Assembly: GCF_033366695.1 (NCBI RefSeq)
Contig: NZ_JAOBTQ010000001.1
Coordinates: 744,001-808,000 of the forward strand
Reading direction: 5' to 3'
From: Streptomyces sp. SCL15-4
Lineage (GTDB): Bacteria > Actinomycetota > Actinomycetes > Streptomycetales > Streptomycetaceae
DNA length: 64,000 nucleotides
Shown: positions 8,360 through 53,258 of the stretch, piece by piece
Position numbering within the stretch: position 1 is the stretch's first letter
How the letters are laid out: each line of letters opens with the position of its first letter
Notes under the pieces: model-generated
The model's input: the letters and a program-made list of their open reading frames with translations, nothing else
Told to the model about the DNA's origin: nothing
Databases searched by the model: none
Position numbers and translations under genes: made by a program

Positions 8360-8827
8360 TCAGCCGGGCAGGTCGCCCGTGTAACGGTAGATGTTCCCGG
8401 CGGAGTTCACGCCCCACACGGTCCCGTCCGCGCCCGCGCCGATGTCGGAGAGCCCACCGGGAATCTGCACCCACGGACTCGCGTCGTTGTTCGAGTAGTG
8501 GTAGATGTTCCCGGCCGAGTTCACACCCCACACCGTGGTGCGGGAGCCCGAGGCGATCGCCTTCAGTCCGCCGCTGATCTGCTTCCAGTGGCCGGATTCC
8601 TGGTCACCGGTGTACCGGTAGATATTGCCCCCGGAGTTCACACCCCACACCGTGCCGTCCGCGCCCGCCCCGATGTCGGAGAGCCCACCGGGAATCTGCA
8701 CCCACGGACTCGCGTCGTTGTTCGTGTAACGGTAGATGTTCCCCGCCGAGTTCACACCCCACACGTTCGTACGCGACCCCACCGCGATCCGCACCAACGC
8801 ACCGGAGATCTGCTTCCAGTCGGCCAT
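8360..8827 (-). CDS. Tectonin-repeat (beta-propeller lectin-like) protein
   Basis: The 155-residue protein is almost wholly four tectonin units of 38-39 residues, each built as W-x-Q-I-x-G-x-L, then A/G-x-G-x-x-x-x-V-W-G-V-N-S-x-G-N-I-Y-x-Y. Units 1 and 3 (WKQISG) and units 2 and 4 (WVQIPGGLSDIGAGADGTVW) match in pairs, so the gene grew by duplication of a two-blade segment (231-bp offset). Tectonin propellers of animals, fungi and bacteria bind methylated or other glycans, LPS or glycolipids. There is no signal peptide. ATG 8827 is preceded by aaaggag. Four blades are fewer than the usual six, so it may assemble from subunits. Carbohydrate recognition is a family inference. Confidence 0.88.
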   Translation of the reverse strand: MADWKQISGALVRIAVGSRTNVWGVNSAGNIYRYTNNDASPWVQIPGGLSDIGAGADGTVWGVNSGGNIYRYTGDQESGHWKQISGGLKAIASGSRTTVWGVNSAGNIYHYSNNDASPWVQIPGGLSDIGAGADGTVWGVNSAGNIYRYTGDLPG

Positions 8828-10760: not shown

Positions 10761-11726
10761 ATGGTGCGGGTCGAGCGTTTACTGGCCGACTGCCTGGACG
10801 ACGCACGTGCCCAGCCGCTGGGCTCCGTTCCCCTCGCGGCGCAGGACCCCGGTTACCCGGCGGCCCGCCGGACGTTCCTCGCGGCCGGTCTCGATGCCCT
10901 GCGCGCCCACGCTCCCGAGGCCGGCTGGGTGCAGCTCGGCCTGGACACCACGCCGTCACCACCCTACGACCGACTCGCCGCCGCCGCGCGTGAGTTGCTC
11001 GGCACCGGACAGGCCCGCGACTTCTTCTTCATGCACAAACCGCCGGGGCTGCGCGTACGGTTCCGCGCGGCGGAGCCGGCCCGGACGCCGGAACTGCGCG
11101 CCGCCCTGCTGCGGCACCTGGAGCCGCGACGGACCGAGGACACCCGGGCGCGGCCCGTGGCCGGTGTGTACGAGCCGGAGACCTATCTCTTCGGCGGCCC
11201 CCGCTCCATGCCCTGGGTGCACGCGTTGTTCACCGCCGACTCCCGGGCCTGGCTGGACGTGCACACCGCCGTGGCCGGTGCTCCGGCACCCGTCGGCTGG
11301 CGGGTGTCCCTGGCACTGCTGCACGCCGTGTTCGACGGGCTGGACATCGTCGGCTGGGAGCACCGGGGGGTCTGGCAGGTCGTACGGGAGGAGACCGGCC
11401 GGCGGCTGCCGGGCGGCCTCGGCGACCCGGACCTGCGCCGGGCCGCCGCCGGAATCCGCGCCTACTGGGACCAGAGCCCCGAGGACCGGCTCCAGGCTCT
11501 GCCCAAGGCCTGGCGGGACGTAGTCGGCGAACACTTGGCGGCGGTGGGACGGGCCGCGGAGCGCTGGCGCACCCACTACTTCGCCTCCGGTGACGCCACG
11601 GTCGGCCCGCGCCGGGCCGCCGCCCATCACGTGATCTTCCACTGGAACCGGGGCGCGCTCCCCACGGCACGCCAGTGCCTGCTCACCGAGGCGCTCGCCG
11701 CCGACGGCCGGGAGGGGGCGAACTGA
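10761..11726 (+). CDS. Lanthipeptide/thiopeptide dehydratase elimination subunit (SpaB C-terminal-type)
   Basis: The 321-residue protein matches the separate 'thiopeptide-type bacteriocin biosynthesis' domain that eliminates glutamate from glutamylated Ser/Thr to give dehydroamino acids. Seen motifs include FFFMHKPPGLRVRF, VYEPETYLFGG and the end motif HHVIFHWNRG. It is the C-terminal half of a LanB dehydratase carried as its own gene and sits 5' of the glutamylation half. ATG 10761 follows gtgaggagg by four bases. Codon 7 is TTA (10779-10781), the rare leucine codon that needs the bldA tRNA in Streptomyces, so expression of the operon is probably tied to development. The next gene starts 3 bp after its stop. 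Confidence 0.9.
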   Translation: MVRVERLLADCLDDARAQPLGSVPLAAQDPGYPAARRTFLAAGLDALRAHAPEAGWVQLGLDTTPSPPYDRLAAAARELLGTGQARDFFFMHKPPGLRVRFRAAEPARTPELRAALLRHLEPRRTEDTRARPVAGVYEPETYLFGGPRSMPWVHALFTADSRAWLDVHTAVAGAPAPVGWRVSLALLHAVFDGLDIVGWEHRGVWQVVREETGRRLPGGLGDPDLRRAAAGIRAYWDQSPEDRLQALPKAWRDVVGEHLAAVGRAAERWRTHYFASGDATVGPRRAAAHHVIFHWNRGALPTARQCLLTEALAADGREGAN

Positions 11727-11728
11727 GC

Positions 11729-14374
11729 ATGGAGCACGTACCGGCACAGGCGGCCCAGCCCACCGGCGCACCCGGCGTGGCGCTCGGGGCCACGGCGCTG
11801 CTGCGGCTGGGCGGCATGCCCGGCGCCGCGTGGACGGCCGGCGCCGCAGGGCACCTCTTCGAAGGCGCCGCCCGGCACGCCGACACCACCGAGCGGCTCG
11901 CCGTACAGGCCCGGGCGCTGGCCGACCGGCTGGGTGCCGAGGTCGTGCCGCACCCGTCGCTGGCCCCCGCCGACCGGGGCGCCGTACTCGCCCTGCGGCG
12001 GCGGCTGCACTCCGGCGCGGCACCCGGGGCACCGGACTGTGCGCTGCTGGAGCGCTCGGCCGCCGTGCCCGCCGACCTCGCCGGGCAGGCCCGCGCCCTG
12101 CTGCGCGGCGCCGAGGCCGCCGAGGCGGCGCTGACCCGGCTGCGGCAGGCGGTCACGGCCGAGCAGCAGCGGGTCGCCGAGCAGGGGTGGCGTACGGCGT
12201 GCTCCAGCCCGGTGATGCGCGCGTTCCTGGACAGCGCCGCGCCGGGACTCGCCGGCGACATCGAACGACGGCTCGCCGAGGGCCAGTCGTGGTCCGGGAA
12301 GCAGCTGCGCAAACGTACCGCCTATCTGTGGCGCATCGTGGGGCGGGCCGCCGTGAAGACCACGCCGCGCGGCTGGGCGGGCCAGATCGCCGCGCTCCCG
12401 GTGGCCGACGGACCGGACGACCGCCCACCGCTCCTCGCACCCGGCACTCCCCTCGGAGACCTCGCCGCGATCGCCGTGGAGAACGTGCACCTGCTGCGGG
12501 CCGGCTCCGCCCCCGCCGATCTGCGCACCGCCGGCCCGGCGACCCTGCTGGCGCCGACGCCCCTGCACTTCGCCGAACCGTCCACCATCGCCCCCGGCGG
12601 CCCGCCCGGCCAGGTGCGCTGTTACGTCGTGGACCCCCGTGAACCCGGCCGGCTCCGGCAGATCGTGCTGCGCCGCACCCGTGTACTGGAAAGCGTGCTG
12701 GCCCTCCTCGCCAACGGGCCGCGCACACTCGGCGAACTGGACCGCGTGCTGCCGCCGCTGAGCGCCCCGCCCGGCCGGCCGCCCGTGGCCGCGGCGGTGC
12801 TGCGCGGATTCCTCCAGCACCTGCACGGGCTCGGCGTCGTACAGATCTGCCGGGCGCCCCGGCAGCACTGCTCCGGCTGGGTGCCGGCCGAGACGGTCAC
12901 CGCCGCCGGTGCCCTGCCGCCGGCGCCGGCGGGCGCGGCGGACGACTGGTTCCTCGACTCCTACCGCCGGCTCGGCACCGACGCCGCCGTGCCCGCCGCA
13001 GCCGTCGCACGCGTCCTGCGCGGGCTGCGGATCGCGGCCCGGATCGCCGCCCTCCAAGAGGCCGACCGGCCTGCCGAACCACCGGAGCGGCAGTCCTGGT
13101 TCGCCGGGCTGACCGAGCGGGCGCGCCCCATCGGCCAGATCCTCGCCGACCGGCTGAGCGCCGACGAACCACCGCCCCCGGCCCGTCGCTACACGGGCTG
13201 GCCACCGGCCCACGACCCCGCCGGCGGCTACGCCCGGCTGCTGGACCACCTCGACGCCGCCGCCCGCTCCGGCACGGCCCGCCTCGACCTGGACGACGCG
13301 CTGCTGGACTCGCTGGGCGCACCGCCCGGCGACGCCGTGCTGCCGCCCTGGCCGGTCGACTGCCTGCTGCGTCCGCTGGTCCCGTCCGCCCACGGCGGCC
13401 CGGTGGCCGTGCTGGAGACCGCCTCGTCCGCCGGGGTGCTCGACGCCCGGTTCGCCGACGGACTGCGCACCCTGCACGGCGGCTACGGCAACGGCGACGC
13501 CTACCGCGCGTTCCTCGCCGCCGTCGAGGAACGCACCGGGGTCCGCTTCGTCGACCTGCTGGTGCCGCCGCTCGCCGAGCGGTCCGCCAACGCCGTACGC
13601 CGTCCGGTGCTGACCCGCTGGTGGACCGGCGACCCGGATCCCACGCCGTACTACGGCACGCCCGGCCGGCACGCGCGCTACCTCCCGCTGGACCGCATCA
13701 GCCTGCGGCGCGCGCACGGCCGGATCGTCGCCGAGGCGGACGGCCGGCGCGTCCTGCCCGTCTACCTGGCCACCCGCTCCCCCGCCCCGCCCTACGACAC
13801 CCTGGTGCGGCTGCTGCTCGCGGCGAGCCATCCGGCGTCCTCGTACCTGGTGCGCCTGGACGCGCTGGACGCGGCGCTGCCCGACCGGGACCGGCTGCCC
13901 CGGCTGACCGCGGGCGGCGACCTCGTCCTCACCCCGGCCACCTGGCGGATCGACCGCGGCCGGCTGTGGGAGCCGGGCGACGACCTGCTCGCCAAGGTCC
14001 GCGTCCTCGCTCTGCTGCGCCGGTCCGCGGGCCTGCCCCGGCACGCGTTCGTACGCACCGCCCCCGGCGCGAAACCGGTCCCGGTGGACCTCGCGTCGCT
14101 GACGGCCGTCCAGCTGATCGAGCGGCTGTGCGCCCGGGATGCGGGCTCCGCGCTGCTGGTGGAGGAGATGCTGCCGGCCCCCGAAGACCTGCTGTTGCGT
14201 GACCCGCTGCACGGCGGCGCGAGCGTCGCCGCGCAGCTCCTGCTCCGGCTCCCCCACGACCAGAGCGCCGGCCGCCTCGCCGAGGCCGCCGCCGACGCCC
14301 TGTTCCGCGGCGGCCGGCACGACGTCCCCGGCCCGTCCGCCAGACGGCCCGCCGGGGCGGCCCACACCCGATGA
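11729..14374 (+). CDS. lanB: Class I lanthipeptide dehydratase, glutamylation subunit (split LanB N-terminal part)
   Basis: An 881-residue LanB N-terminal-type enzyme that activates precursor Ser/Thr by transferring glutamate from Glu-tRNA. Recognisable elements are KTTPRGWAGQIA, the FADGLRTLHGGYGNGDAYRAF stretch split over about residues 575-595, RFVDLLVPPLAERSANAVRRP, the DPTPYYGTPGRHARYLPLD region and LVEEMLPAPEDLLL near the end. The usual fused elimination domain is missing and is supplied by the gene immediately upstream. ATG 11729 is chosen because ggaggggg lies about 10 bases upstream and it begins 3 bp after the previous stop; an 18-codon extension overlaps that gene. It is the second gene of a four-gene operon. 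Confidence 0.93.
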   Translation: MEHVPAQAAQPTGAPGVALGATALLRLGGMPGAAWTAGAAGHLFEGAARHADTTERLAVQARALADRLGAEVVPHPSLAPADRGAVLALRRRLHSGAAPGAPDCALLERSAAVPADLAGQARALLRGAEAAEAALTRLRQAVTAEQQRVAEQGWRTACSSPVMRAFLDSAAPGLAGDIERRLAEGQSWSGKQLRKRTAYLWRIVGRAAVKTTPRGWAGQIAALPVADGPDDRPPLLAPGTPLGDLAAIAVENVHLLRAGSAPADLRTAGPATLLAPTPLHFAEPSTIAPGGPPGQVRCYVVDPREPGRLRQIVLRRTRVLESVLALLANGPRTLGELDRVLPPLSAPPGRPPVAAAVLRGFLQHLHGLGVVQICRAPRQHCSGWVPAETVTAAGALPPAPAGAADDWFLDSYRRLGTDAAVPAAAVARVLRGLRIAARIAALQEADRPAEPPERQSWFAGLTERARPIGQILADRLSADEPPPPARRYTGWPPAHDPAGGYARLLDHLDAAARSGTARLDLDDALLDSLGAPPGDAVLPPWPVDCLLRPLVPSAHGGPVAVLETASSAGVLDARFADGLRTLHGGYGNGDAYRAFLAAVEERTGVRFVDLLVPPLAERSANAVRRPVLTRWWTGDPDPTPYYGTPGRHARYLPLDRISLRRAHGRIVAEADGRRVLPVYLATRSPAPPYDTLVRLLLAASHPASSYLVRLDALDAALPDRDRLPRLTAGGDLVLTPATWRIDRGRLWEPGDDLLAKVRVLALLRRSAGLPRHAFVRTAPGAKPVPVDLASLTAVQLIERLCARDAGSALLVEEMLPAPEDLLLRDPLHGGASVAAQLLLRLPHDQSAGRLAEAAADALFRGGRHDVPGPSARRPAGAAHTR

Positions 14375-14398: not shown

Positions 14399-14554
14399 AT
14401 GCCCGCACACGAGATCACCGAACTCGACACGCTGATCAGCGACTTGGAGGAGCGGATCACCGACGAGGACCTGCCGACCGCCGCGGCGTACAGCGAGGGA
14501 TGCAGCGGTCTGTGCACGATCATCGTCTGTGCCACGGTCATCATCTGTGCATGA
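14399..14554 (+). CDS. lanA: Lanthipeptide precursor peptide (LanA), 51 residues
   Basis: A short gene between the dehydratase and cyclase genes, starting at ATG 14399 behind aaaggggaag. The leader (residues 1 to about 30, MPAHEITELDTLISDLEE...) is acidic and helical, with an ELDTL motif like the FNLD box of class I leaders. The core from about residue 31 has four Cys (35, 39, 44, 50) and four Ser/Thr (S32, S36, T40, T46) in strict order S-x2-C, S-x2-C, T-x3-C, T-x3-C. This predicts four non-overlapping lanthionine/methyllanthionine rings and no unpaired donor or acceptor. After Glu33 the core has no charge and ends in a hydrophobic stretch (TIIVCATVIICA), so the product should be membrane-seeking. 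The exact cleavage site is unknown. Confidence 0.92.
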   Translation: MPAHEITELDTLISDLEERITDEDLPTAAAYSEGCSGLCTIIVCATVIICA

Positions 14555-14621: not shown

Positions 14622-15809
14622 ATGCCGCACGACACGGCGCCACCGGCCGCCCCGCCGGACGAGGACGTCCACGGGCTCGCCGTCCGCTACCTGCTGGAGT
14701 GGGCCGGAGCGCCCGAACGGGGCGGACACCGCTGCGACCCCGGGATCCCGGTGCTGGCACATCTGGTCGCGGACGAACGGGCGGCGCCCGCCGCCGTGGC
14801 CGTGTGGTCCCGCACGGCCGGACGCGGGCCGTCCCACCCCGCGCTGTACGACGGGGGCCTGGCCGGCACGCTCGTCGGGCTGCGCCTCGGCGCCCGGGTG
14901 CTGCCCGGGCTCGGGGCCGCGGCGGACCGGCTCGGCGCCCACCTGGCCGGGCGCCCGGCCCGCTACCGCACCCACGAGGTCGCGTTCGTCGACTACGACC
15001 TGATCTCCGGCCCGTCCGGACTGCTGCTCGCCCTGTGCGCGACGGAACCGGCGCGGCCCCTGCCGCGTCCGCTCGCCGCCCACCTGGCGCTGCTGTGCGA
15101 CGAGGAGGAACTGGGACGGCTGCGCGCGGGCCAGTACGCGGACCATCCTCTCCTGGCCTGGATGCAGGGCCGGGTCAACACCGGTATGGGGCACGGTGTC
15201 GCCGGACTGGTCGCCGCGCTCACCGCGGCACTGCGCCGCTCCGCCGCTGACCCGGACCCGGCCGTCGACCTCGCCGGGGCGCTCGGCCGGGCCACCCGCT
15301 GGCTGGTGCGCCAGGCGTACGACGACGAGCGGGGCATCCGCACCTGGCCCGGCGCCGGACCCGCGCGCCCGCCCTCCCCCGAGGCCAACCCCCGCCAGGC
15401 GTGGTGCTACGGCACGCCGGGAGTCGCCTGGGCGCTGTGGGACGCCGCCGACGCCCTCGGGGACGGTGCCGCCGCCGACTGGGCGGCGACCGCCTTCACC
15501 ACGCTCGCCGAGCACTACGACGAGACCTTCCACCTCTTCGGCGACGCTCCGGGCGACCGCCTCGGGCTGTGCCACGGGGCGGCGGGCGTGCTGGCCGTCG
15601 CCGACGCCTTCGACCGCCACGCCCGGCTGCCTGCGGCCGGCACGCTGAAGGACCGGCTCGCCGGCCATCTGACGGCCCGGCTCGCCGCCCACCCGCTCGC
15701 CGAATGGCCCGCGGACCTTCTCACCGGCCTGCCGGGAGCGCTGGCCGCCCTGCTGACCGCCGTCCACGGGGCACCCCGCGGCTGGCTTCCGTGTCTGGGG
15801 CTGCGCTGA
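14622..15809 (+). CDS. lanC: Lanthionine synthetase C-like cyclase
   Basis: A 395-residue LanC cyclase that adds Cys thiols to dehydrated residues to close thioether rings. The alpha-toroid GxxG-type motifs recur (YDGGLAGTLVG, GMGHGVAGL, YGTPGVAWAL, GAAGVLAVADAF, GLPGALAAL). The zinc ligands are seen as WCYGTPG (Cys) and LCHGAAG (Cys-His). The start ATG 14622 sits six bases after caggagg; a 31-codon extension overlaps the hairpin and is rejected. It is the last gene of the operon; no protease or dedicated transporter gene follows, so export and leader removal must use enzymes coded elsewhere. Confidence 0.94.
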   Translation: MPHDTAPPAAPPDEDVHGLAVRYLLEWAGAPERGGHRCDPGIPVLAHLVADERAAPAAVAVWSRTAGRGPSHPALYDGGLAGTLVGLRLGARVLPGLGAAADRLGAHLAGRPARYRTHEVAFVDYDLISGPSGLLLALCATEPARPLPRPLAAHLALLCDEEELGRLRAGQYADHPLLAWMQGRVNTGMGHGVAGLVAALTAALRRSAADPDPAVDLAGALGRATRWLVRQAYDDERGIRTWPGAGPARPPSPEANPRQAWCYGTPGVAWALWDAADALGDGAAADWAATAFTTLAEHYDETFHLFGDAPGDRLGLCHGAAGVLAVADAFDRHARLPAAGTLKDRLAGHLTARLAAHPLAEWPADLLTGLPGALAALLTAVHGAPRGWLPCLGLR

Positions 15810-16030: not shown

Positions 16031-16681
16031 ATGGTGACCGTGCGACTGACGATGCTGTGCGCGACCGCCACGCCGGGCAGCCCCGGCCGGGTCTTCGGGG
16101 ACGGTCTTCCGGGCGAAGACGGCCGGAGCGGGGCCACCGCGGCCCTCCCGCCGTACGCGCGGGCCCTGCGGGCGCCCTCCGTCCGCTGCGCGCGGATCGC
16201 CGAGGCCCTGGCGGTCGAGGCCGCGCCGGAGGACGCCCTGCGCGATCTGGACTACGGCGCGTGGGAGGGCCGCCTGCTCCAGGACATCGCGGCCGAGGAC
16301 CCGCACGGTCTGTCCACCTGGCTGCGCGATCCGCGGGCCGCGCCGCACGGCGGCGAGTCCGTCGCCCGGCTCTGCGCCCGCACGGCGGCATGGCTGACGG
16401 CGCTGCCGGCCGGCCCGGGGCGGGTACTCGCGATCACCGAAGCCCCGGTCGTCCGGGCCGCGCTGGTCCACGCCCTGGCCGTACCGGCCCGCGCCTTCTG
16501 GCAGCTGCGGGTGCCGCCCCTGTCGACGGTGACGCTGACGCTGAGCGAGGGCCACTGGACGGCCCGGCTCGGCCGGCCCGCGGCACCGCGGCGGCCGTCG
16601 ACGGCCGAGGAGGCCGTCCCCGTGGCCGCCCTCACCCTGCGTCCGGGCCGGGAGCGGCTGTGTCTCGCCGCACGGTCCTGA
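16031..16681 (+). CDS. Degenerate histidine-phosphatase-fold protein
   Basis: A 216-residue protein with the general layout of the phosphoglycerate mutase/histidine phosphatase family: an N-terminal strand (VRLTMLCATATPG), LDYGAWEGR, GGESVARLCART and VLAITEAPVVRAALVHALAVPARAFW. The catalytic RHG motif is replaced by L-C-A-T-A and the second His position (family 'SHG') reads TEA, so ordinary phosphatase chemistry is unlikely. Actinobacteria hold many such family members without RHG; their function is unsettled. ATG 16031 follows aaggagg with five-base spacing. It lies between the lanthipeptide operon and a two-component system and is probably transcribed on its own. Confidence 0.75.
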   Translation: MVTVRLTMLCATATPGSPGRVFGDGLPGEDGRSGATAALPPYARALRAPSVRCARIAEALAVEAAPEDALRDLDYGAWEGRLLQDIAAEDPHGLSTWLRDPRAAPHGGESVARLCARTAAWLTALPAGPGRVLAITEAPVVRAALVHALAVPARAFWQLRVPPLSTVTLTLSEGHWTARLGRPAAPRRPSTAEEAVPVAALTLRPGRERLCLAARS

Positions 16682-16810
16682 CCTGACCTCGACCGCACGG
16701 CCGCGGCGGCGGGCGGCCACGCTCCGGCCTTCCCGTGGGTGCCGGGCGGCGCGGTCGCGTCCGGCGTGGTACGAATCGGACACAGTACTCCCACAGAGGC
16801 TGGAGCACAC

Positions 16811-17464
16811 GTGATCCGGGTACTGGTGGTCGACGACGAAGCCCTGATCCGCACGGGCTTCCAGCGCATCCTGGACGCCGCCGACGGTATCGAGGTGGTC
16901 GGCGCGGTCTCCGGCGGCCAGGCCCTGCGGGCGGTACGGGAGAAGCGCCCCGATGTCGTCCTGCTGGACATCCGCATGCCGGACGTGGACGGGCTCACCG
17001 TACTGAGCGACATCCGGCGGCTGCCGCAGCCCCCGGTGGTCGCCATGCTGACCACGTTCGACATGGACGAGTACGTGGAGACGGCGCTGCGCTCGGGCGC
17101 CGCCGGCTTCCTGCTGAAGGACACCGATCCGGAGGCGCTGCCGCCGGCGGTGCAGAGCCTGGCCCGCGGCGGCACGGTGCTGTCGCCCAAGGTCACGCGC
17201 ACGGTGGTGGACGGCTATCTGAACAGCGGGGCGCAGGAGCGCCCGCCCAAGGCGCTGGGACGGCTGACCGAGCGCGAGCGCGAGGTGCTGGTCCTGATCG
17301 CCGAGGGCCTGTCGAACACCGACATCGCGGCCCGGATGCATCTGAGCACCGGCACCGTCAAGGACCACGTCAGCGCGATCCTGACCAAGCTGGAGGTCAG
17401 CGGCCGGGTCCAGGCGGCCCTTCTCGCCCAGCGGGCGGGGCTCCTCGCCGAGGGCACGGGATGA
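16811..17464 (+). CDS. NarL/FixJ-type response regulator
   Basis: A 217-residue regulator. The receiver begins VIRVLVVDDEALIRTGFQRI with the acidic pair, has phospho-Asp in VVLLDIRMPDVDGL, and the conserved Thr and Lys regions (MLTTFDMDEYV, GFLLKDTDPEALP). The C-terminal LuxR HTH reads LTEREREVLVLIAEGLSNTDIAARMHLSTGTVKDHV across about residues 150-190. The start GTG 16811 follows ggagcacac; a 24-codon extension is not supported. It overlaps the kinase start by four bases (ATGA), so the pair is co-translated. It is about 1 kb downstream of the lanthipeptide operon; control of that operon is only a positional inference. Confidence 0.95.
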   Translation: MIRVLVVDDEALIRTGFQRILDAADGIEVVGAVSGGQALRAVREKRPDVVLLDIRMPDVDGLTVLSDIRRLPQPPVVAMLTTFDMDEYVETALRSGAAGFLLKDTDPEALPPAVQSLARGGTVLSPKVTRTVVDGYLNSGAQERPPKALGRLTEREREVLVLIAEGLSNTDIAARMHLSTGTVKDHVSAILTKLEVSGRVQAALLAQRAGLLAEGTG

Positions 17465-18561
17465 CCCGCCGCCCGTCCCCGCTGCTCCTGGACGGCGTGG
17501 CCGTGGCCATGGCGCTCCTCGACGTGTGGGCGCACTGGGACATCGACGAGCCGTTGCGGATGGCCTGCGCGCTGGCCGCCGCGGTCGCCCTGCTCCTGCG
17601 CCGGCGGCAGCCGCTGCTCACCTTCCTGCTCACGCTGCCCGCCGTGCTGCTGTCCGACGCGGTCTTCGCCTGCCTGGCCGCGCTGTACACGCTCGCCTCG
17701 TTCAACCGCCCGCGGGCGCTGCTGGTCGGGTGCGCCCTGGCGTTCGCGTTCAGCGACACGACGTCGCTGCCGTCGCCGCGGCTGGATCTGACCCGCACCC
17801 CGACGCTGATCGCGCTCGGCTACAGCGCGGCCACGGCGGCGGCGGCCGTCTTCCTGGGGCAGCTGGTGCGGACCCGCCACGATCTGTCGCTGCGGCTGGC
17901 CGAGATCTCGGAGGCGCGGGACCACCAGCAGTTGCTGACCGCGCAGGCCGTCCTCGCCAAGGAGCGCGCCCAGCTCGCCCGGGAGATGCACGATGTCGTC
18001 TCCCACCAGGTCAGTCTGATCGCCGTGCGCGCCGGAGCGCTGCAAGTGGGCGCGGGCGATCCGGAGACGAGGGAGGCGGCGGCGACGATCCGGCGGCTGA
18101 GCGTGCAGACGCTGGACGAGCTGCGCCACATGGTCGGTGTGCTGCGTGCGTCCAGCGGCCATCCCACGGAACTCACCCCGCAGCCGGCGCTCAGCGACAT
18201 CCGGCGGCTGGCCGACAACTGCGGCCTCAGGACCGAGCTGCGCATGGCCCTGCCGGACGGTCTTCCGCCCACCGTCCAGCGCGCGGTCTACCGCACGGTC
18301 CAGGAGGCGCTGACGAACACCCGCAAGCACGCTCCCGGGGCGACCGCGCGCATCGACCTGAGCCATGCCGACGGTTCCGTGCGGGTCAGGATCACCAACA
18401 CGGCGCCGACCCAGCCGCCGCTGCCCCTGCCCGGCGCCCACCACGGTCTGCTCGGGCTGCGTCAGCGCGCCGAACTCCTGGGCGGCACGATGACCTCGGG
18501 CCCGACCGGCGACGGCGGCTACGAGCTGTGCGTCGTGCTTCCGGCCGAGGACACGCGGTGA
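17461..18561 (+). CDS. Sensor histidine kinase (HPK7/NarX-type)
   Basis: A 366-residue membrane kinase paired with the upstream response regulator (ATGA overlap). About the first 135 residues form four or five hydrophobic helices (MALLDVWAHWDI, LAAAVALLLRRR, LLTFLLTLPAVLLS, LVGCALAFAF, AAAAVFLGQLV) with little extracellular loop, so it may sense membrane state or an integral ligand. The dimerisation helix carries the phospho-His in LAREMHDVVSHQVSLIAVRAG, and the ATPase domain shows VYRTVQEALTNTRKHAPG and HHGLLGLRQRAELLGG. This class often responds to cell-envelope stress in actinobacteria; the signal here is unknown. Confidence 0.94.
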   Translation: MTRRPSPLLLDGVAVAMALLDVWAHWDIDEPLRMACALAAAVALLLRRRQPLLTFLLTLPAVLLSDAVFACLAALYTLASFNRPRALLVGCALAFAFSDTTSLPSPRLDLTRTPTLIALGYSAATAAAAVFLGQLVRTRHDLSLRLAEISEARDHQQLLTAQAVLAKERAQLAREMHDVVSHQVSLIAVRAGALQVGAGDPETREAAATIRRLSVQTLDELRHMVGVLRASSGHPTELTPQPALSDIRRLADNCGLRTELRMALPDGLPPTVQRAVYRTVQEALTNTRKHAPGATARIDLSHADGSVRVRITNTAPTQPPLPLPGAHHGLLGLRQRAELLGGTMTSGPTGDGGYELCVVLPAEDTR

Positions 18562-52196: not shown

Positions 52197-53258
52197 TCAG
52201 AGGCCGAAGAGGAAGGCCGCGTATCCGCACTCCTCCTCGACCCAGTGCCGCCGGCAGCGCATCCCGTGTTCGCCGAGCGCGCGCACGATGCCGTCCACCG
52301 TGAACTTGCGCACCACGTCGTGGAGGAGCAGCTCGCCGGCGTCGAAGTCCACCGTCAGCCCCAGCCCGGGCAACGTCACCCGCTGCCGTCGCAGGCTGCG
52401 GATGCCGCCGAGCACCTCGCGCCGTGCCACGTCGTAGGCGAGTTCCGGCTCGAAGGCGTCGACGTCGAAGTCGGCGTCGTAGCGGCGGTTGAGGTGGAGG
52501 AGGGTGTTCAGGGCGAACATCCGGCGGACGGGGCGCGGCCCGGTGTACCCGGCCCCGTAGGCACGCCGCACCGCCTCGGCCGGTTCGGACAGGTCCACGC
52601 AGACCAGCAGGTGATCGTTCGGGGCGCAGCCGGCGCGCACGGCCCGCAGGAAGCGCGCCTGCTCGGATGCGGACAGGTTGCCGAGCGTGTTGCCGAGCAA
52701 CGCCAGGAGGCGGCCGCCCGTGCCGTCGCCCGCGGTCGCGGAGCCGTTCGCGACGGCGACCCGCCGCGCGCGGCGCAGCCAGGGCAGGGCGGTCAGGAAG
52801 TCGCCGTGCACGGCGGTGACCCGGGCTTGCGGCCAGCGCCGCCGGATACGGGCGGCGGCCTGCCGCATCGGCTCGGGGCTGACGTCCACGCCCGTGTACG
52901 CCCGCAGCAGGCCGTGCCCGTCCATGGCCGCGAGCAGGATCTCGGCCTTGCGCGCACTGCCCGCCCCGAGGTCCACCAGCTCGGCCGGCTTCGCCAGGCC
53001 GACCAGGTCGTCGCCGTGCTCGGTCAGCAGCCACCGTTCGGCCCGGGGCGGGTAGTAGTCGGGCAGGCGCGTGATCTCCTCGAAGAGTCGCGAACCGGTC
53101 TCGTCGTAGCCGAAGACCGACGGAATCCTGCGGTGCCGTGCCGGAGCGGGCGCGGTGAGCCCGGCCCGGAGTTCCTCCTCCGGCGTACCGGCCTCACCGT
53201 CGGCCGCCGACGGCAGTTCGACCTCCGTGACCGGCGCCGCCGTGCGTGACTCGGTCAT
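52197..53258 (-). CDS. EgtD-like SAM-dependent methyltransferase
   Basis: A 353-residue protein of the EgtD (histidine N-alpha-methyltransferase) superfamily. It shows YDETGSRLFEEITRLPDYYP and RAERWLLTEHGDDL, the SAM motif LVDLGAGSARKAEILLAAM, and LALLGNTLGNLSASEQARFL. In known EgtD the C-terminal E-x-S pair that holds histidine lies in an EIS-x-KF-like stretch; here the region reads LLLHDVVRKFTVDGIVRAL, so these residues differ. No egtA, egtB or egtC gene is near, so ergothioneine synthesis is not supported. Methylation of another amine is possible. ATG 53258 follows gaggaggacggg. Confidence 0.82.
   Translation of the reverse strand: MTESRTAAPVTEVELPSAADGEAGTPEEELRAGLTAPAPARHRRIPSVFGYDETGSRLFEEITRLPDYYPPRAERWLLTEHGDDLVGLAKPAELVDLGAGSARKAEILLAAMDGHGLLRAYTGVDVSPEPMRQAAARIRRRWPQARVTAVHGDFLTALPWLRRARRVAVANGSATAGDGTGGRLLALLGNTLGNLSASEQARFLRAVRAGCAPNDHLLVCVDLSEPAEAVRRAYGAGYTGPRPVRRMFALNTLLHLNRRYDADFDVDAFEPELAYDVARREVLGGIRSLRRQRVTLPGLGLTVDFDAGELLLHDVVRKFTVDGIVRALGEHGMRCRRHWVEEECGYAAFLFGL

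Follow-up and report, generated by a model that had tools for sequence, protein, structure and literature searches.

A SapT-type class I lanthipeptide cluster in Streptomyces sp. SCL15-4 predicted to encode a biosurfactant morphogen with serine in its first ring

We analyzed a 64,000-nucleotide stretch of the Streptomyces sp. SCL15-4 genome (hereafter the window) and found a four-gene locus that is very probably a SapT-type class I lanthipeptide cluster, its likely product being a biosurfactant morphogen. SapT, a class I lanthipeptide, contains one Lan and three MeLan and is produced by SptA, SptBa, SptBb and SptC; its subtype, in which LanB is split and no protease is clustered, is rare, and the peptide restores morphogenesis of SapB-deficient S. 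coelicolor (PMC9011353). The spt cluster of S. lavenduligriseus Tu901 (formerly S. tendae) has the same four genes as the window, and the two are alike in having no clustered protease (for the window, in the neighbouring frames scanned), a Lys/Leu signature in the lyase, His191 in LanC, and four Lan/MeLan rings, those of the window being predicted. They differ in the first ring: SapT has Thr there, whereas Ser32 in the window precursor predicts two Lan and two MeLan. Because ring A would be formed from Ser, the window product is not SapT itself.

Table 1 Cluster genes and flanking features, in window coordinates.
Feature	Position	Strand	Details
Stand-alone glutamyl lyase, SptBb type, Lant_dehydr_C	10761-11726	+	321 aa; PF14028 E 1.4e-18; TIGR03891 E 3.9e-24
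Stand-alone glutamyl transferase, SptBa type, Lant_dehydr_N	11729-14374	+	PF04738 E 6.2e-16
SapT-type precursor	14399-14554	+	51 aa; leader 1-30, predicted core 31-51 YSEGCSGLCTIIVCATVIICA; putative cleavage point
Predicted core region	14489-14551	+	Predicted rings S32-C35, S36-C39 (Lan); T40-C44, T46-C50 (MeLan)
LanC cyclase, SptC type	14622-15809	+	395 aa; PF05147 (LANC_like) E 1.4e-18; His191, Cys262, Cys317, His318
Histidine phosphatase, flanking, probably outside cluster	16031-16681 (start by eye)	+	PF00300 E 5.7e-21
Response regulator (LuxR-type) and histidine kinase, flanking, probably outside cluster	16739-18561	+	PF00072, GerE; HisKA_3

Translation of the precursor gene gives MPAHEITELDTLISDLEERITDEDLPTAAAYSEGCSGLCTIIVCATVIICA followed by a stop, and bears out the initial annotation in its description of a 51-residue precursor with the Ser/Thr and Cys pairs in tandem. 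Its statement that every Ser, Thr and Cys of the core is used once holds from Y31 onward, and the core is indeed almost without charge, E33 being the single charged residue. The four-ring layout is predicted by analogy with SapT and its relative dmxorosin. Neither Pfam (E <=0.01) nor NCBIfam (E <=1) had a model matching the precursor. Ala directly precedes the predicted core in 47 of 58 SapT-type four-ring precursors (see below) and occupies position -3 in 33 of them, a hint that an unlinked protease may cut at a conserved site.

Dmxorosin, a second product of the SapT type, is dehydrated at T2, S6, T10 and T16, and its fragment ions b5, b9, b14, b15 and b20 fall between tandem rings (PMC11855644). 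By analogy, these ions support the earlier proposal of a class I lanthipeptide with four tandem, non-overlapping rings. The dmx cluster of S. thermolilacinus SPC6 encodes a split LanB and a LanC, and its donors at positions 2, 6, 10 and 16 are placed as in the window core. Dmxorosin has Thr at position 2 and the formula C88H141N21O23S4 (PMC11855644), whereas the predicted window core minus four waters has the computed formula C90H143N21O25S4 and a monoisotopic mass of 2045.9447 ([M+2H]2+ 1023.9796), assuming cleavage before Y31. Three typed SapT-like strings match the published formula and m/z of dmxorosin, a check of consistency only. S. eurythermus (locus L003) encodes the core YTQGCSGLCTIVICATVVICG, which we take to be that of SapT; six of the 21 residues of the window core are different. 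One point against the SapT-type reading is that the first ring donor is at position 32 in both the window precursor and L003, whereas the first modified Thr of SptA is number 35 (PMC9890492); SptA either has three extra residues ahead or is numbered otherwise.

A protein database search returned six candidates, all of them 78-86% identical to the precursor over 98-100% of its length and the four that carry a name all labelled Streptomyces, and a search with a 14-row precursor alignment found 106 family members among 1394 candidates. Sampling of 392 genomes of the genus found the precursor in 15, window genome included, and at 17 other loci a relative is flanked by the transferase gene and the LanC gene. 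The six close relatives, the 106 family members and these 17 loci together argue that the precursor is not due to chance. Five of the 17 loci are from named Streptomyces in a genome collection and twelve from the genus genomes, that is, 12 of the 14 other precursor-positive genomes (G181 and G192 were omitted, as their precursors duplicate the L003 and L005 ones). The precursor alignment was made without L016, L017, L019 and L020 (missed by the regular expression), L014, L018, L008 (identical to L005) and L005.

The four-ring pattern is present in 58 of 107 precursors (the 106 members and that of the window). Their first donor is Thr in 34 and Ser in 24, and a Ser/Thr swap at ring A is common in the SapT family; the 49 precursors outside the pattern are more variable. 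A fifth unit, at the C-terminal end, occurs in 12 of the 58 (for example P0017, P0029, P0037, P0061 and P0064). Two of these 12, P0061 and P0064, carry Kitasatospora labels, beyond the Streptomyces-only range of PMC9011353, which describes 41 precursors, all from Streptomyces, and six with a fifth ring unit placed at the N-terminus. P0068 and P0075 are also labelled Kitasatospora, and P0099 is labelled Actinospica. Leader residues, as well as active-site residues of the lyase and LanC, are conserved across species. The exact window core is found in no other representative among the 107 precursors, although clustering of the database at 90% identity may hide close copies of it. A set of more distant relatives (P0089, P0094, P0097, P0098, P0100 and P0104-P0108) has a similar leader and a core with endings such as GSTxCGSAINC, and thus a different arrangement of rings behind a common leader.

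A text search with the motif GCSGLC found no paper, and the papers listed by literature searches gave no described SapT-type product beyond SapT and dmxorosin. The initial annotation had not recognized the core and considered the product possibly new, a claim to be given up if a closely similar core had already been described. SapT and dmxorosin are such cores (PMC9011353, PMC11855644), and the claim falls. We likewise reject a core outside known families, given the database relatives, the 106-member family and the SapT and dmxorosin papers. The product is instead a new relative in the described SapT family, one whose ring A carries a common exchange of Ser for Thr, and not a new kind of peptide.

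Pfam places Lant_dehydr_C and Lant_dehydr_N on one side of the precursor gene and LANC_like on the other, in agreement with the flanking split LanB and LanC proposed at the outset. The two LanB domains are carried by separate genes, and since the lyase gene lies ahead of the transferase gene, the split LanB represents two separate enzymes and not a broken gene. The PF04738 match in the transferase covers only residues 520-814, in the numbering of a longer frame from 11675; the frame is open from that position, but translation more likely starts from the ATG at 11729. All four cluster frames are open. The order lyase-transferase-precursor-LanC on one strand recurs in 16 of the 17 other loci, and in the 17th, L006, the contig end falls before the lyase.

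PMC9011353 names Lys92 and Leu142 in SptBb and His191 in SptC. S. eurythermus has exactly Lys92 and Leu142 in its lyase and His191 in its LanC, whereas the window lyase has Lys93 and Leu143, together with the motif VIFHWNR; its numbering is shifted because it has one residue more than L003 ahead of the Lys. Both Lys and Leu are kept in 17 of 17 lyases (window and 16 loci), and LanC residues H191, C262, C317 and H318 are invariant in 18 of 18 aligned LanCs. The last three of these are presumably the zinc ligands. Aligned with a full-length LanB from another genome (L057), the window lyase has YLFGG for ERYGG and VIFHWNR for AHMHCNR: it has Leu in place of the canonical Arg, lacks the catalytic His and carries the SptBb-type Lys, which falls one column off the canonical Tyr. 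In the same lyase-domain alignment, where the L058 row was disregarded because it looks like a wrong frame, L059, L060 and L065 retain His at the catalytic-His column, and L066 and L069 have a Lys and HVIFH and resemble the window lyase; the L069 domain is apparently fused to a methyltransferase. A PDB sequence search with the lyase alone returned nothing at E <=10, and a 15-row lyase profile returned no LanB, only a globin-like chain (E 0.061) and TsrE (E 0.12), so our reading of the active site rests on alignment and published numbering. The transferase had no PDB match at E <=1, and LanC matched a LanC-like chain (E 3.2e-6), with NisC only at E 0.15.

SptBb gives (E)-Dhb via net syn-elimination, as determined by NMR (PMC9890492), and the three MeLan of SapT are D-allo-L (PMC9011353). 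Given the SptBb signature in the window lyase and His191 in LanC, (E)-Dhb formed by syn-elimination would be expected, and D-allo-L-MeLan is predicted in the product. An SptBb-like active site is also tied to D-allo-L-MeLan in coi clusters, where the lyase is fused to a methyltransferase (PMC9011353, PMC9486935). These clusters also have a full-length LanB with a canonical lyase, whereas the window genome has a single Lant_dehydr_C match, so that no canonical lyase is present to process the Thr residues.

We compared the neighbourhoods of the window and the 17 other loci using filtered ORFs of >=80 codons, a length that excludes the precursors. The LanC frame was recovered in 17 of 18 loci and the lyase and transferase in 15 of 18 each, the rest failing the codon filter. 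The families present in at least three loci were the three enzymes, a response regulator (window, L002, L003, and L022, where it is 40% identical), and genes or antisense frames confined to groups of relatives; no protease recurred across distant loci. Two groups of close relatives share neighbours, window/L002/L003 and L023/L028/L029, and one antisense frame inside the enzyme genes is common to L023, L024 and L026. The L023/L028/L029 group has in common an arylamine-type N-acetyltransferase, an MGDG-synthase-like glycosyltransferase, a short-chain dehydrogenase and a 2OG-Fe(II) oxygenase by Pfam, plus a fifth gene with no Pfam match. The histidine phosphatase, response regulator and histidine kinase of the window flank the cluster in only two of the 17 other loci (L002 and L003), and we rejected them as cluster genes. 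Among the selected window neighbour frames scanned with Pfam there were no transporter, protease or immunity families; this selection is not a complete gene list, and 5 of 10 frames in one set and 1 of 10 in another were unmatched and may be wrong frames. Elsewhere in the window, a 155-aa open frame (8360-8827, minus strand) has nearly identical tectonin (beta-propeller lectin) repeat units (PF19193, E 2.9e-41), and an EgtD-like histidine-specific methyltransferase gene (52197-53258, minus strand; PF10017) may mark an ergothioneine locus.

From the gene content, gene order, conservation and active-site signatures observed here, we infer the chemistry, cleavage site, export and function of the peptide in this strain. 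The SptBa-type transferase would load glutamate from Glu-tRNA on S32, S36, T40 and T46, and the separate SptBb-type lyase would eliminate it, syn at Thr, to give two Dha and two (E)-Dhb. LanC would then close four tandem rings as two DL-Lan and two D-allo-L-MeLan. Removal of the leader, probably before Y31, would fall to an unlinked protease, and the exported hydrophobic peptide would lower surface tension, allowing aerial hyphae to emerge. Published work on SapT has established the chemistry of its rings and their stereochemistry, the (E)-Dhb, and its activity in morphogenesis (PMC9011353, PMC9890492), and by analogy the window product is likely a biosurfactant morphogen rather than an antibiotic.

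A new antibacterial lantibiotic that permeabilizes membranes or binds lipid II would fit the class I enzymes and the hydrophobic multi-ring core. We consider it very improbable, because the close relative dmxorosin gave no antibacterial zones (PMC11855644), SapT is a biosurfactant (PMC9011353), the Pfam-scanned neighbour frames include no transporter, protease or immunity family, and, beyond sets of closely related loci, a response regulator is the one family besides the core enzymes that recurs around the cluster. With its split LanB, a single Lant_dehydr_C match in the genome and none of these families in the scanned neighbours, the cluster is not that of a classical nisin-type lantibiotic. 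Of the initial annotation's phrase "likely membrane-active", the part that stands, by analogy, is a hydrophobic and surface-active product; the activity is better read as that of a biosurfactant of aerial hyphae, in view of the rescue by SapT and of dmxorosin's lack of zones (PMC9011353, PMC11855644).

Characterized lyases of other class I systems use anti-elimination (PMC9890492), which would here give a canonical product with ordinary DL-MeLan. That outcome is scarcely credible for a lyase that has the SptBb-type Lys and lacks the canonical Arg and catalytic His, in a genome with no second Lant_dehydr_C match. In S. thermolilacinus SPC6, its native host, dmx is a silent cluster (PMC11855644), and the window cluster could in principle be decayed or silent and without function; four open frames and the conservation of leader, lyase and LanC active-site residues across species make this very improbable. 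A SapT-type biosurfactant morphogen is thus our preferred reading, and places the peptide among published morphogens whose thioether stereochemistry is unusual, and not on an unknown antibiotic scaffold. The family map, with 106 precursor clusters, four- and five-ring members, and Kitasatospora and Actinospica labels besides Streptomyces, together with the natural Ser/Thr swap in ring A, provides material for asking which of the rings and stereocentres are required for surfactant function.

The class III morphogens SapB and AmfS presumably do the same job, as hydrophobic surfactant peptides for aerial hyphae, but a single LanKC enzyme makes them, starting from an unrelated precursor, whereas the window uses separate LanB/LanC-type enzymes; the cluster does not have the LanKC and AmfS-family precursor of a class III system. 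In the host genome we detected no SapB/AmfS precursor at E <=1, with all 31 candidates scored, at a threshold loose enough to give chance matches in 4 of 14 control genomes, and its best LanKC scored 361 bits, below the class III cut-off of 575 bits. Across the genus, SapB/AmfS passed the cut-off in at least 204 of 392 genomes (up to 18 candidates scored in each) and in 8 of the 15 SapT-precursor-positive genomes, where independence would give ~7.8, and class III LanKC passed in 10 of the 15. We therefore reject mutual exclusion of SapT and SapB: in this sample, the presence of one morphogen neither favours nor excludes that of the other. The seven of 15 precursor-positive genomes without SapB/AmfS do not weaken the SapT-type identification and are compatible with a role as sole morphogen. 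That the SapT-type peptide is the only lanthipeptide surfactant for aerial growth in this strain (99.97% complete genome) is nevertheless a tentative idea that we regard as rather doubtful; if true, a class I pathway would take on the task that normally falls to the class III pathway. The lack of a detectable SapB precursor in the host is a twist of mild interest, and strains with SapT genes and no detectable SapB gene would permit a clean deletion test of the role of SapT in its own host. We also noted an enzyme with RamC_N, Pkinase and LANC_like domains (L033:1450-3996, minus strand; G000:C1:327146-329608) that is below the class III cut-off. Its gene adjoins a short frame with no Pfam match (L033:3999-4376, minus strand), which could encode a Cys-containing precursor unlike SapB.
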